From Ignavibacteria bacterium RIFCSPLOWO2_12_FULL_56_21 (lineage in GTDB: Bacteria > Bacteroidota > Ignavibacteria > UBA10030), in assembly GCA_001802945.1 (NCBI GenBank), contig MHAK01000091.1:1-49523 (forward strand): DNA of 49,523 nucleotides, read 5' to 3'. Below are positions 18,171-41,672 of the stretch, one piece after another. The notes under the pieces are model-generated. The model searched no databases and was not told the origin of the DNA. It was given only the letters and a program-made list of their open reading frames with translations. Made by a program: the position numbers and the translations under genes. The stretch's first letter is position 1. Each line of letters opens with the position of its first letter.

Positions 18171-18215
18171 AACCGCGAATGAACGCGAATGACCATTCAC
18201 TATTCACTATTGACC
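18171..18215. repeat. CGCGAAT / ATTCACTATT repeat between MFS and SIS genes
   Basis: Two copies of (C/A)CGCGAAT (18173-18180 and 18183-18190) run into ATTCACTATTCACTATTGACC. The last residues of the MFS protein (VNSE) and its stop codon are read from this repeat. The CGCGAAT unit is the same as that flanking the GxxExxY gene at 39.7-40.3 kb. Confidence 0.55.
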
Positions 18216-37735: not shown

Positions 37736-38742
37736 AAGCAGCGCTTTTTACCCAATCCGGCACTGTGAACGTTGTCGACCGGCCAGAGAAACATCCGGGG
37801 CCGGGAGAGATCGTCATTGCTGTTGAAAGTTGCGGCGTGTGCGGAACGGACCTTCACATTGTCGAAGGCACGTCGCGCTCTACGCCGCCGGTGGTCCTTG
37901 GACACGAATTTGCCGGCGTTATTGAGTCGATAGGACCGGGGGTCACAGACCTGCATCCCGGGCAGAGAATCGCGGCCGACCCGAACATCTCCTGCGGCAC
38001 ATGTAGTTATTGCCGGCGCGGGCTCGTGCATTTATGCGCCCGCTTGAGAGCTCTTGGCGTGGATATCGACGGAGGAATGGCGGAACGCTGCGTTCTTCCT
38101 GCCGCTCAAGCTCATGTGCTTCCCAGGGGATTTCCCGTTGATGCGGCTCCGTTCGTCGAACCGGTTTCTTGCGCCGTCCACGGCATTGACCGGGCCGGCA
38201 TCAAGACCGGAGATACGGTGGTCATCACGGGGGGCGGTACGATCGGCCTGATCATGCTTCAATTGTCCCGTCACGCAGGAGCGTCACAGACGATCGTTGT
38301 CGAGCCGCTGGGTTGGAAACGAGAGATCGCACAGAGGCTCGGCGCAACGATTGCGGTCGACGGTACGAAAGCAAAGGAAGCTGTCCGCGATCTTACGGTC
38401 GACGGAGCGGATGTCGTGATCGAATGTGCCGGTTCGACAACAGCAGTGGATATGGCGCTGGAACTGGCCCGTCGCGGCGGGACCGTCGAAGTGTTCGGCG
38501 TATGCAGGAGTGGTCAATCGGTCTCCGTTGAACCCCACAGTCTCTTCTTCAGAGAATTGACCGTCGTCGGTTCGTACGTCAATCCGCACACGTTCGCGAG
38601 GGCGATCGAAATCCTGGCCGCCGGCATCATCCGGGTTGACGCATTCAGAGTCTCGCGATTTTCCATCGACAACGTGCATAACGCATTCAGTGTTCTGCGT
38701 GACGGCGGGACTCACAAGAGCATGATCGTTCCGGCCTCGTAA
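37732..38742 (+). CDS. Zinc-dependent polyol-type dehydrogenase
   Basis: The start is GTG 37732, overlapping the previous stop (GTGA); an ATG at 37678 lies inside the upstream gene. About 336 residues of the medium-chain dehydrogenase family. Catalytic zinc: Cys37 (CGVCGTDLHI) and His58-Glu59 (GHEFAG). Structural zinc: Cys88, 91, 94 and 102 (CGTCSYCRRGLVHLC). Rossmann motif VITGGGTIGLIMLQL. Closest in pattern to sorbitol, threonine or galactitol dehydrogenases. Together with the PfkB kinase that follows with a 1-base overlap it could make a polyol-to-ketose-to-ketose-phosphate route. That substrate is an inference. Confidence 0.92.
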   Translation: MKAALFTQSGTVNVVDRPEKHPGPGEIVIAVESCGVCGTDLHIVEGTSRSTPPVVLGHEFAGVIESIGPGVTDLHPGQRIAADPNISCGTCSYCRRGLVHLCARLRALGVDIDGGMAERCVLPAAQAHVLPRGFPVDAAPFVEPVSCAVHGIDRAGIKTGDTVVITGGGTIGLIMLQLSRHAGASQTIVVEPLGWKREIAQRLGATIAVDGTKAKEAVRDLTVDGADVVIECAGSTTAVDMALELARRGGTVEVFGVCRSGQSVSVEPHSLFFRELTVVGSYVNPHTFARAIEILAAGIIRVDAFRVSRFSIDNVHNAFSVLRDGGTHKSMIVPAS

Positions 38743-39713
38743 TGGCGAACGCTGAAGTCACATGCGTCGGCGAAGCGCTCGTCGACTTCGTTTCGTCGTC
38801 GCCTACCCGGTCGCTGTCAACAGCCACAGGATTTGTCAAAGCAGCCGGCGGAGCTCCCGCAAACGTTGCCGTGGGCTTGTCGCGATTGGGTATCCGAACG
38901 GAATTCGTTGGCACAGTGGGGGCCGACAGCTTCGGCAGGTTTCTTACCGACGAATTGCGCCGCTTCGGCGTCGGCACACGCGGCATCGTTGCCACGGACG
39001 AGGGGAAAACGCGTCTTGCGTTCGTGGCCGTTTCGAAAACAGGTGAGCGGGATTTCGAGTTTTGGGAACGCCATCCGGCGGGACAACAGCTCCACCGCAA
39101 GGACATCGACGTGCAGCGGGTCGTTCGCTCGAAGATCGTGAACATCGGACCGTTCCTGCTACTCACAAAGCCAGCTCGCACCACTGCGTACGCCGTTGCC
39201 CGGGAAGCGATTCGCCGAGGCAGTTCGGTCTGTTTCGATCCCAACCTCAGAATGTCGCTCTGGCGAGAGCCGGCTGAAGTGAAGAGGCTCGCGCTCAGAA
39301 TGATGCGAATGACGACCGTCCTGCGGATGAACGACGAAGAAGCCCGGTTCTTTACCGGAGCTCGGAATGTACGATCCGCAATCCGTGATCTTCTGGGGCT
39401 TGGCCCCCGGATTGTCGTCATCACGGAAGGAGCGCGAGGCTGCACGTTCGCGACAGAGGACGGGATACGGCGGTTGAAAGGGTTTCGTGTGCGTGCAGTG
39501 GACACGACTGGCTGCGGCGACGGATTTCTCGCGGGATTGCTCGCGGGTATCGTCCGATCCAAGGTTCCCGTCGGCCGATTTTCGGTCTCGGAACTGGCAG
39601 AGGTGTGTCGGACAGCAAATGCTGTCGGTGCGCTTGTGTCGTTGAAACGGGGTGCGATCCCGGCCATGCCGTCGGAGGAAGACGTGGTGGGATTTCTAAG
39701 AGCCCAGTCGTAA
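38742..39713 (+). CDS. PfkB-family carbohydrate kinase (fructokinase-like)
   Basis: 323 residues. Sugar-binding motif GEALVDFVSS, then AGGAPANVAVGLSRLG, FDPNLRMSLW and the C-terminal anion-hole/catalytic signature DTTGCGDGF (Cys in place of the usual Ala, catalytic Asp kept). The pattern GEALVDF...GGAPANVA...DPNLR is that of fructokinases in the PfkB superfamily. The start codon shares one base with the dehydrogenase stop, so the two are translationally coupled. Cytoplasmic, ATP-dependent phosphorylation of a ketose is likely. Confidence 0.92.
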   Translation: MANAEVTCVGEALVDFVSSSPTRSLSTATGFVKAAGGAPANVAVGLSRLGIRTEFVGTVGADSFGRFLTDELRRFGVGTRGIVATDEGKTRLAFVAVSKTGERDFEFWERHPAGQQLHRKDIDVQRVVRSKIVNIGPFLLLTKPARTTAYAVAREAIRRGSSVCFDPNLRMSLWREPAEVKRLALRMMRMTTVLRMNDEEARFFTGARNVRSAIRDLLGLGPRIVVITEGARGCTFATEDGIRRLKGFRVRAVDTTGCGDGFLAGLLAGIVRSKVPVGRFSVSELAEVCRTANAVGALVSLKRGAIPAMPSEEDVVGFLRAQS

Positions 39714-39726
39714 AGCACTGAAAGCA

Positions 39727-39762
39727 GATTCACCCGCGAATCTTCGCGAATCTACGCGAATC
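39727..39762. repeat. CGCGAATC repeat, left arm of the GxxExxY cassette
   Basis: GATTCACCCGCGAATCTTCG continues as CGAATCTACGCGAATC: three CGCGAATC-type units in tandem. Its inverse complement lies at 40227-40259, so the pair brackets the nuclease gene. Confidence 0.75.
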
Positions 39763-39814
39763 AAAGAAGCTGCAAATAGTTATTGAAATAATATTTGGTA
39801 ATTGGGGGGGGAAC

Positions 39815-40204
39815 ATGGGAAAGCTGATCTTCAAGGATGAAGTATACAGCGTGGTCGGCTGCGGCATGGAGGTATACAATCACCTAGGTAATGGCTTCCT
39901 TGAAGCCGTATACCAAGAAGCGTTTGAACTTGAGTTGTCAGATAGAACAATACCGTTTGAATCTCAAAAGTTGCTACCGATATGCTACAAGTCTCGCAAA
40001 CTCAAGAAGCAATACAAAGCCGATCTGGTCATCTCGGGATCAATAATTGTGGAATTGAAGGCTCAATCGCGCCTCACTTCAAACGATCTTTCTCAAATGA
40101 TCAATTATCTCAATGCTGCACAATTGCCATTGGGAATTCTCATCAATGTTGGAGCAGATAAAAATCTTGAATGGAAGAGAGTGGTTTTGTCCACACAAAA
40201 ATAA
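39815..40204 (+). CDS. GxxExxY-family PD-(D/E)XK nuclease-like protein
   Basis: 129 residues, the full length of the family. The name-giving motif is G27-F-L-E30-A-V-Y33. The nuclease core follows: Asp70 (YKADLVISG) and E80-L-K82 (IIVELKAQ), i.e. D-x9-E-x-K. Then come the conserved SQMINYLNAA and LPLGILINVGA segments. Family members are small, widespread in FCB and PVC bacteria and have no proven function. The gene is clearly AT-richer than both neighbours and interrupts an otherwise tight operon. It is flanked by inverted CGCGAATC repeats, which suggests arrival as a unit. A run of eight G (39804-39811) stands 3 bases before the ATG, where the ribosome site would be. Confidence 0.88.
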   Translation: MGKLIFKDEVYSVVGCGMEVYNHLGNGFLEAVYQEAFELELSDRTIPFESQKLLPICYKSRKLKKQYKADLVISGSIIVELKAQSRLTSNDLSQMINYLNAAQLPLGILINVGADKNLEWKRVVLSTQK

Positions 40205-40226
40205 CGGCACGAGATACCACCATACC

Positions 40227-40259
40227 ATTCGTGAAGATTCGCGTTGATTCGCGGGAATC
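40227..40259. repeat. CGCGAATC repeat, right arm of the GxxExxY cassette (inverted)
   Basis: ATTCGTGAAGATTCGCGTTG continues as ATTCGCGGGAATC. Read in reverse complement it is GATTCCCGCGAATCAACGCG..., aligning with the left arm at 39727-39762 with few differences. It ends 21 bases before the next start codon. Confidence 0.75.
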
Positions 40260-40280
40260 ATTTCAATTACAATTCTCTAT

Positions 40281-41672
40281 ATGATCATTCGCTCCACCAT
40301 TGGCCTTCTCCTCGCTCTCGGTTCCTGCGCCCGGGAGCAACCATCGCTCGTGAACACATCCCATCTCCGGCACCTCACGGAACGGATTTCGTTCCAGGGA
40401 GATTCTGTCGACATTATCCGCATTTATGCTGACGCGCCGAAGTACGACTGGGTGGGAGCAGGTGATGAAGGGATCGCTTGCGTCGATGATGCGGCGCGTG
40501 CTGCAGTGTTCTATCTCACCCATGCCAAGCTGATGCAGGACCGCAGCAGTCTCGACAGGGCGCGCGAACTGCTCAAATTCGTTCTTCGCATGGAGACTGA
40601 CGAAGGATTGTTCTACAACTTCATCAGGGAAGACCGTTCCATCAACACTACCGGTTCGACGAGTCTTCCATCGTTCGGATGGTGGGCGGGCCGGGGGATA
40701 TGGTCGCTCGGGCTCGGGTACCGCGTATTCCTCACATCGGACCCGGCTTTCGCGGACGTATTGTCGGAGGCCGTGGAACGTGCATTCCCGCATCTTGACA
40801 CGCTTCTGAACAACTATGGTCATGAGCGGGTCGCGTCCGGCATGCGGATTCCGGAGTGGCTCCTGTATGGTTCCGGTGCGGACGCTACATCAGAACTTGT
40901 GCTTGGACTGATCGAATACGAGAGTGCGCGTCCACAACAGCGCGTGCGCACGTACATTGAGAAGCTGTGCGAAGGCATGATGATCATGCAGGACGGTGAC
41001 ATCGGTACTTTTCCGCATGGCGCGCATCGGTCCTGGGAATCGCGTTGGCATGCGTGGGGAAATAGTCAGACGCAGGCGCTGGCGACGGCTGGGAAGTTGC
41101 TGAAGAACGATCGCATGATCGCTTCTGCGAAACGCGAAGCGGAAGGCTGGTACGGCCGACTGCTCATCCTGGGCAATCAGCGCGAACGGGATTTCGCCGA
41201 CAGCGCAAACCACAAAGAGTATGAACAGATCGCATACGATATCAGGCCGATGGCGGTGGGTCTGTTACGGCTCGGCGAAGCGACGGGGGAGGATCGATAC
41301 GCACGCATGGCGGGATTGGCCGCATCATGGTTCTTCGGCAACAACACGCCGGGTAAGCCGATGTACGACTTTCTCACGGGGCGGGGATACGACGGCATTC
41401 GATCGGGAAGCGAGGTCAATGCGAATTCCGGCGCAGAATCCACGATCGAGGCCCTGTTGACGGTGCTCGAAGTGGAACATTCCTCTGCGGCCAGGCAATA
41501 TCTGTACTGCAGAAAGGGAACCTTGAGAACAACTGCCGACGCATTGACCCGAACCATCACCGACAAAGAAGGGAAGGTGGAAGGTGCGATTCGCATAGAC
41601 CTGCGCCAGGGGCAGATGCAGCTCATCGACCGTGAACAAGCCGAAGCTATGGAAAAAGATGTCACGCAATGA
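40281..41672 (+). CDS. Lipoprotein with a six-hairpin glycosidase-like fold (unassigned)
   Basis: 463 residues with a lipoprotein signal (MIIRSTIGLLLALGSC, Cys16). Helical-hairpin repeats run through the protein: CVDDAARAAVFYLTHAKLM, DEGLFYNFIREDRSINTTGS, PSFGWWAGRGIWSLGLGYRV, WESRWHAWGNSQTQALATAG and MYDFLTGRGYDGIRSGSEVN then ANSGAESTIEALLTVL. The last two recall the C-terminal half of GH9-like and related (alpha/alpha)6 enzymes, and acidic positions in VDDAARA and AESTIEA could be catalytic. I cannot assign a family. The next gene begins within or just past its end. Location: periplasm or outer surface, anchored by lipid. Probably acts on oligosaccharides of the locus. Confidence 0.72.
   Translation: MIIRSTIGLLLALGSCAREQPSLVNTSHLRHLTERISFQGDSVDIIRIYADAPKYDWVGAGDEGIACVDDAARAAVFYLTHAKLMQDRSSLDRARELLKFVLRMETDEGLFYNFIREDRSINTTGSTSLPSFGWWAGRGIWSLGLGYRVFLTSDPAFADVLSEAVERAFPHLDTLLNNYGHERVASGMRIPEWLLYGSGADATSELVLGLIEYESARPQQRVRTYIEKLCEGMMIMQDGDIGTFPHGAHRSWESRWHAWGNSQTQALATAGKLLKNDRMIASAKREAEGWYGRLLILGNQRERDFADSANHKEYEQIAYDIRPMAVGLLRLGEATGEDRYARMAGLAASWFFGNNTPGKPMYDFLTGRGYDGIRSGSEVNANSGAESTIEALLTVLEVEHSSAARQYLYCRKGTLRTTADALTRTITDKEGKVEGAIRIDLRQGQMQLIDREQAEAMEKDVTQ

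Follow-up and report, generated by a model that had tools for sequence, protein, structure and literature searches.

A candidate mobile cassette: a GxxExxY nuclease-like gene between inverted arrays of a seven-letter word, with dispersed gene-less copies

Results

The window, the whole 49,523-nucleotide stretch of an Ignavibacteria genome analysed here, carries on its forward strand a gene for a 129-aa protein (39815–40204) identified as GxxExxY/PDDEXK_3 nuclease-like by profile matches. It is flanked by a PfkB-family kinase gene on the left (38742–39713, forward strand) and by the gene of a 463-aa protein on the right (40281–41672, forward strand), both outside the element; the 463-aa product, which the earlier note labelled a lipoprotein, has no Pfam match at E 1e-3. 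As that note described, the nuclease-like gene is AT-rich and its surroundings are GC-rich, with 41.5% GC versus 60.5% in the PfkB gene, 57.7% in the next gene and 55.9% in the window. Two inverted arms bracket it. The left arm (39733–39762, forward strand) holds three CGCGAAT cores at 39735, 39745 and 39755, a period of 10, while the right arm (40227–40255, reverse strand) carries the word array in reverse complement (ATTCGTG, ATTCGCG, ATTCGCG) and reads, in that sense, as CGCGAAT twice and CACGAAT once. Over 29 nt (39733–39761 against 40227–40255) the arms are 86% complementary. A pair of three-core arms in the right order within 900 bp, present once in the real window, was found in 0 of 200 first-order Markov windows; together with mismatched flank pairs and other-ORF controls, this rejects a chance origin of the arms. 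The 21 bases previously given between arm and next start hold when counted from the end chosen there (40259), but the complementary right arm ends 25 bp before the next ATG. The interval from the PfkB stop to the next start codon (39714–40280, 567 bp) sets the maximal extent of an insertion. In several GxxExxY genes a G run (GGGGGG) lies directly 5′ of the start codon, an odd ribosome-binding region (window 39800–39817; also L004 and L011).

A related repeat without a gene had been placed near 18171–18190, and a half-copy with two CGCGAAT cores indeed lies on the forward strand at 18174–18190; no right arm was found within the 601 bases read. Another word run (ATTCACTATTCACTATTGACC) adjoins it at 18190–18215.

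The protein matches PF13366 PDDEXK_3 (5.6e-37, 127.1 bits against a cut-off of 22) and TIGR04256 GxxExxY (1.8e-37, 128.3 bits against 35), the only families found in Pfam and NCBIfam, PF13366 being the sole Pfam match at E 1e-3. With a profile score above cut-off, the GxxExxY motif and a D-ExK site, it belongs to the GxxExxY family. All of 31 aligned relatives share G27, E30, Y33, D70, E80, K82 and Y98, and at least 90% of them keep Q94. A set of E, D, ExK, Q and Y residues is typical of RecB/Cas4-type nucleases, and an active nuclease is expected because the catalytic residues are invariant in relatives, as in nucleases of that type. By sequence, no solved homologue was found (best E 1.1). 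The AlphaFold2 model has a mean pLDDT of 92, with helix 1 spanning H7-24; structurally it is most similar to SSO0001, to lambda-type exonucleases and to restriction-like folds, SSO0001 (4ic1_G) ranking first (Z 9.3, rmsd 4.5, 99 aligned). The fold predicted by the model resembles that of Cas4/RecB nucleases, and its D-ExK site is intact.

The earlier note described a single cassette with CGCGAATC arms. That cassette is present, but the phenomenon is far wider, and elsewhere in this genome there are cassettes with different words. The genome contains ten GxxExxY loci, one of them split into two matches. An inverted repeat between the flanks scores at least 17 in seven of the ten; L003, L004 and L011 (scores 10, 11 and 8) have word runs visible by eye and are counted as misses in the statistics. 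CGCGAAT-like arms alone account for 2/10, and a wider view of the word brings out arms at others; the words differ between cassettes, CACGAAG being common to L007 and L009. At L011 (G000:C58:6785-7066), a truncated GxxExxY gene is fused in frame to the long next ORF, giving an open frame of 878 aa, and CACGAAT words adjoin it.

Among foreign loci, 60 of 78 usable ones (80 named) score at least 18, versus 3.6% of 780 mismatched pairs. Where the flanks were long enough, this score is reached in total by 122 of 202 GxxExxY genes, compared with 7 of 224 other ORFs in those loci. Examples come from Firmicutes (L058), Anaerolineales (L059), Acidobacteria (L060), Calditrichia (L065), Methylophaga (L067), Planctomycetota (L074), Oligosphaera (L076), Treponema (L084), Nitrospinia (L093), Verrucomicrobium (L098), Ignavibacteria (L108) and Rhodospirillales (L121). 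Word arms flank GxxExxY genes in many bacterial phyla. They are not a generic property of genes in these genomes, since other ORFs in the same loci seldom have them. Nor is this a typical phage or plasmid gene (0 of 50,697 phage records and 8 of 72,556 plasmid records).

Words differ from cassette to cassette, yet most fit C-R-C-N-R-A-[GT] (CRCNRAK), repeated every 8–12 bp, most commonly 9 and then 10. This consensus was derived from the listed loci and counted on those same loci, 7 of 153 being left out for short flanks: 115 of 146 loci have an arm with at least two cores on one side or both, 67 of them on both, whereas the reversed control gives 11/146 and chains pointing the other way 38/146, eight of them both-sided. 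Neither side has a CRCNRAK chain at 31 of the 146. In 102 of 180 arms a C directly precedes the outermost core. Sixty new loci, tested separately as a hold-out with one dropped for a short flank, confirm the consensus: 47/59 have an arm versus 6/59 reversed, and 36/59 reach an inverted-repeat score of at least 18 versus 3.1% of mismatched pairs. Across the 202 loci with enough flank, CRCNRAK chains stand on both sides of 92 GxxExxY genes, compared with 1 of the 224 other ORFs.

The two arms of a locus agree chiefly in their words. At variable core positions left and right match at 0.84 within a locus versus 0.48 between mismatched loci, and spacer length is equal in 100 of 118, whereas spacer letters match weakly (0.47 versus 0.35). 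Cores that match between poorly matched spacers favour individually recognised words over one long stem.

We then compared the words with the proteins. Word distance grows with protein distance (Mantel r 0.37, n = 111), a relation that exceeds every permutation even at protein distances of at least 0.5, and in 33 of 41 cassettes with a genome-mate the word is closer to that of the nearest foreign protein than to those of its genome-mates. The inner 40 bp adjoining the arm, though equally linked, shows no relation to the protein (r −0.03), and the value for the outer 40 bp (0.075) lies inside the permutation range. The hold-out loci give a Mantel r of 0.45, the largest permutation reaching 0.22. 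The word follows the protein more than the genome. For the window itself, its word class is marginally enriched among the 20 most similar foreign proteins (8/16 versus 8/37, p = 0.054).

A column scan places residues 5–11, at the start of helix 1, among the standouts for letters 2, 4 and 5, along with others such as 119 and 123. Residue-letter associations were fixed before the 60 hold-out loci were fetched and were tested on the 47 with arms, in tables that ignore ancestry. Residue 10 (T/other) is associated with letter 5 (G/A) at 11,0/10,19 (p = 0.00015, 40 of 47 usable, ancestry ignored), and residue 7 (N,D/K,E) with letter 4 (A/G) at 27,0/0,2 (p = 0.0025, 29 usable), a result carried by two K/E loci. 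Residue 7 against letter 2 gives p = 0.054 (40 usable); for letter 7, residue 28 gives p = 0.013 (44 usable) and residue 113 p = 0.0086 (46 usable). Disjoint pairs of close proteins were then compared across old and new loci together, 158 cassettes with arms in total. Among the 120 columns, residue 7 comes out first for letter 4 (mean −log10 p 4.6, the next 2.3) and residue 10 first for letter 5 (2.35), followed by residues 5 and 11, while no helix-1 residue is at the top for letters 2 and 7. In the first 111 loci the same comparison gives p = 0.0004 for residue 7 and letter 4 and p = 0.11 for residue 10 and letter 5, and for letter 7 it picks out no residue where helix 1 begins. The natural reading is that helix 1 would read the word directly.

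The search of the whole genome for arms, which the earlier note proposed, reveals abundant gene-less repeats. The GATTCGCGNNNATTCGCG pattern, with up to three mismatches, occurs at 397 places versus 46 for its backwards control, overlapping places inside one arm being counted separately. Within 449.5 kb (the window and 20 stretches of its genome) there are 86 chains of at least two cores versus 7 reversed, and 20 of at least three versus 0. Of neighbouring chains no more than 300 bp apart, 16 pairs have the order LR, 6 LL, 3 RR and 2 RL. A gene-less copy consists of a left arm, a short loop and a right arm; such copies are dispersed over the genome and are more numerous than cassettes. Some repeated matches taken for gene-less copies proved to be a tRNA and another palindrome type. 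The commonest arm words in the 449.5 kb are CGCGAAT, CACGAAG, CGCCAAG and CACGAAT. In the same genome, cassettes carry CGCGAAT (L008), CACGAAG (L007 and L009) and CACGAAT (L011), and none with CGCCAAG was seen. As folded single-stranded DNA, two gene-less copies have z scores of −6.6 and −5.4, and the window's left arm alone −2.0.

The expected link between repeat number and the gene family is weak. In 148 genomes of the phylum, the net number of repeats rises only weakly with GxxExxY gene number (rho 0.23, p = 0.006), a count that includes cassette arms and is partly trivial; the correlation is stronger in the window's own class (36 genomes, rho 0.50, p = 0.002) but not significant outside it (0.13, p = 0.16). 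One genome, G088, has by far the most repeats of the 148, with 148 period-9 pattern matches versus 1 in the control, but only 4 GxxExxY matches.

Several other repeats were observed alongside. Gene-less units form tandem arrays in L269 (G054:C1:2009400-2010700) and L270 (G182:C12:219200-220400), with periods of about 211–233 bp and 167 bp. In some CGCAAAG gene-less copies (L255–L261) the words are enclosed by a further inverted repeat, about TAGAACCTATCTCAAAAA, which may be an IS-derived MITE that has fused with the hairpin. A palindrome of another kind (CGCCATCCGATAAATCGGACG...) is dispersed in G026, G027 and G028 (L237 17838-17917, L263–L266). An intergenic tandem array (L240 6170-6290/L267) has the word AACTCC in G027 and GACGTAAGACGT in G026, genomes about 91% alike here, a rapid word turnover of a type other than CRCNRAK.

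Empty and filled sites were compared to follow the gene and its arms. The 13 kb surrounding the gene were matched against 32 genomes (its own and 31 relatives), and the syntenic stretch was read in five relatives (L176–L180). The PfkB gene and the 463-aa gene are kept as a pair in L176, L177 and L179, where they overlap or almost touch, and none of these three informative relatives has a GxxExxY match or arms between them; L178 and L180 have the 463-aa gene and no PfkB match. Gene and arms are missing in 3/3 relatives with the pair, which indicates a gain of at most 567 bp in the lineage of the window. A second site, with clearer edges than that of the window, lies between planctomycete genes that we read from their flanks as leuC and leuD. 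In L088 and L090 a cassette follows straight after the stop of the first gene; L094 is empty there, with another cassette about 560 bp beyond. The empty site reads TAATCGCGGGTTA, which resembles the joined outer ends of both arms and so may either be left over from excision or represent the original target. Similarly, the cassette of G028 is missing from G027 at the same place. In L149/L186, related cassettes occupy two non-homologous sites of one genome, and their similarity stops at the arms. The cassette of G027 (L240 10008-10560) is composite, each of its ends being a complete word hairpin. These comparisons support the earlier proposal that gene and arms are gained or lost together as a unit. 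All junctions were compared between diverged genomes, and in them neither a target-site duplication nor exact ends were established.

A second gene family has a comparable layout. The window's genome contains 14 loci of the PF05635 four-helix bundle (L044–L057), 13 above the family cut-off, of which 12/14 lie between inverted word arms with a score of at least 14 (the 95th percentile of mismatched pairs is 14). Their arm words are of TTAGAAG, GGTGATG, TACATTG and GAAATACG types, and CRCNRAK chains occur in the 350-bp flanks of 0/14. This suggests that PF05635 genes form a parallel system, with an unrelated protein and other words. A 23S rRNA intervening sequence with GACAGAT heptamers, described in the literature (PMC4990558), resembles these loci in layout.

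Discussion

Taken together, these observations point to a small mobile cassette in which the gene of a Cas4/RecB-like PD-(D/E)XK nuclease lies between inverted arrays of a seven-letter word that the nuclease recognises, a reading to which we assign a probability of roughly 0.65. The nuclease would bind its own arms through residues at the start of helix 1 and nick or cut them; the likeliest substrate is a folded single-stranded hairpin at a replication fork, because cutting hundreds of duplex sites would be lethal. Host repair may then copy the unit into intergenic DNA. The cassette would be the autonomous form and the gene-less hairpin a non-autonomous form mobilised in trans, so that the system might work like RAYT and its REPINs, with an unrelated enzyme. 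Several results count against this reading: the weak relation of repeat load to gene number, the loci with no CRCNRAK chain or with both-sided chains pointing the other way, the lack of a leading helix-1 residue for letters 2 and 7, and the marginal enrichment of the window's word class among similar proteins. A broader version of it, which we hold tentatively and at slightly worse than even odds, is that residues 7 and 10 determine letters 4 and 5 of the CRCNRAK words, both in the arms of the cassette and in gene-less hairpins that make up its private family. The cassettes would then be a pan-bacterial mobile class with an evolvable code, and the unrelated four-helix-bundle family would drive a parallel class with its own words, this state having been invented at least twice.

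The main rival, which we consider unlikely, treats the word hairpins as an independent dispersed repeat and the GxxExxY gene as an invader resembling a homing endonuclease, copied into a cut cognate hairpin so that the arms are the two halves of its target. Where G027 has its cassette, G029 carries a gene-less hairpin and G024 a decayed one, and at the site of the G028 cassette G025 carries a hairpin of another word (G029 has about 380 bp of other sequence there); these sites also fit homing, as does the excess of gene-less copies over cassettes, and co-variation of word and protein is expected equally. However, gene and full hairpin are both absent at the window site in three relatives, at leuC-leuD in L094 and at the G028 site in G027; therefore, arms and gene came or went together at those sites. 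Homing also leaves the spread of the hairpins themselves unexplained.

A mobile DNA cassette is likewise favoured over an element acting as RNA, an improbable alternative in which the arms pair in the transcript as a stem, like the 23S rRNA intervening sequences excised by RNase III, and the protein is cargo or acts on RNA. The Coxiella 23S intervening sequence, in the part of its description consulted here, offers a precedent, with a 28-bp stem and tandem GACAGAT heptamers before a four-helix-bundle ORF (PMC4990558), and the two gene-less copies fold well. Against this, arms match in their cores but poorly in their spacers, and therefore the words, rather than the whole stem, are kept, which rejects a pure RNA stem; moreover, the word letter follows protein residues. 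A known RNA family is also rejected, as the elements have no Rfam match and only tRNAs reach the Rfam gathering score in the five sources given.

It is very improbable that the gene encodes a defence protein or toxin whose arms only drive expression or recombination between alleles. Excerpts of one source report PD-(D/E)XK nucleases of the Rpn kind as toxin-antitoxin and anti-phage proteins (PMC10327210), but between the window arms there is no second ORF of at least 80 aa on the gene's strand, and such a role has no place for the association of word and residue. Least probable of all are ordinary intergenic repeats, terminator-like or of the host, that border small mobile genes by coincidence in permissive gaps: such repeats are frequent in this genome, but within the loci compared both-sided chains are almost confined to GxxExxY genes, left and right words agree within a locus, and the protein-word association recurs in the hold-out loci.

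We found no description of the association between arms and GxxExxY genes in the open PMC literature, where the term GxxExxY appears once in each of two papers and the literal word strings tried appear in none. If the mobile-cassette reading is correct, a large protein family without a proven function would gain an enzyme activity, a substrate and a life style, and common intergenic word repeats of environmental bacterial genomes would be explained. It would also provide a small nuclease whose DNA specificity is possibly legible from two residues. An enzyme with a dispersed hairpin is a known kind of system, and there is a real chance that this one merits a class of its own.

Several known systems share single features with the cassette. 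Cas4 proteins have a four-cysteine Fe-S cluster. The window protein resembles them in its D-ExK and QxxxY residues and in its top structural match, SSO0001, which we take to be a Cas4; unlike Cas4, it is 129 aa long and has only two cysteines (16 and 57), too few for that cluster. Rpn/YhgA-like proteins (PF04754) belong to the same nuclease superfamily, but the window protein has no PF04754 match at E 1e-3. Rpn has been linked to RecA-independent horizontal transfer, according to passages of one source (PMC5350276). The 23S rRNA intervening sequence (S23/IVP ORF) is also a small ORF in an inverted repeat with tandem heptamers, as an extract of its description has it (PMC4990558), whereas here the protein is unrelated, the cassette lies between protein genes (PfkB and the 463-aa gene) and no rRNA family is found in the window at the Rfam gathering score. 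Like the MITEs of IS elements, short gene-less inverted-repeat copies of about 50–140 bp occur beside gene-bearing ones; unlike in IS elements, there is no DDE transposase, the ORF between the arms being PDDEXK_3 only, and the terminal repeats are arrays of degenerate words.

The closest resemblance is to the REPtron (TnpA-REP/RAYT), in which enzyme and REP repeats have co-evolved and gene-less inverted doublets fold as hairpins, as described in portions of two sources (PMC3116915; PMC8266576). Here too, an enzyme is tied to many gene-less inverted doublets foldable as hairpins, and co-evolution of enzyme and repeat is seen statistically, so that the analogy with RAYT and REP drawn in the earlier note is apt in architecture. 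Unlike the REPtron, with its HuH/Y1 enzyme and single palindrome, the cassette has a Cas4/RecB-like PD-(D/E)XK nuclease and tandem seven-letter words at a period of 8–12 bp, and a single genome can contain several cassettes that differ in their words. The element lies outside the REPtron class because the defining HuH enzyme is absent. RAYT/REPIN is its nearest working analogue, and if the mobile-cassette reading holds, two-part mobile systems of the REP type arose with unrelated enzymes.
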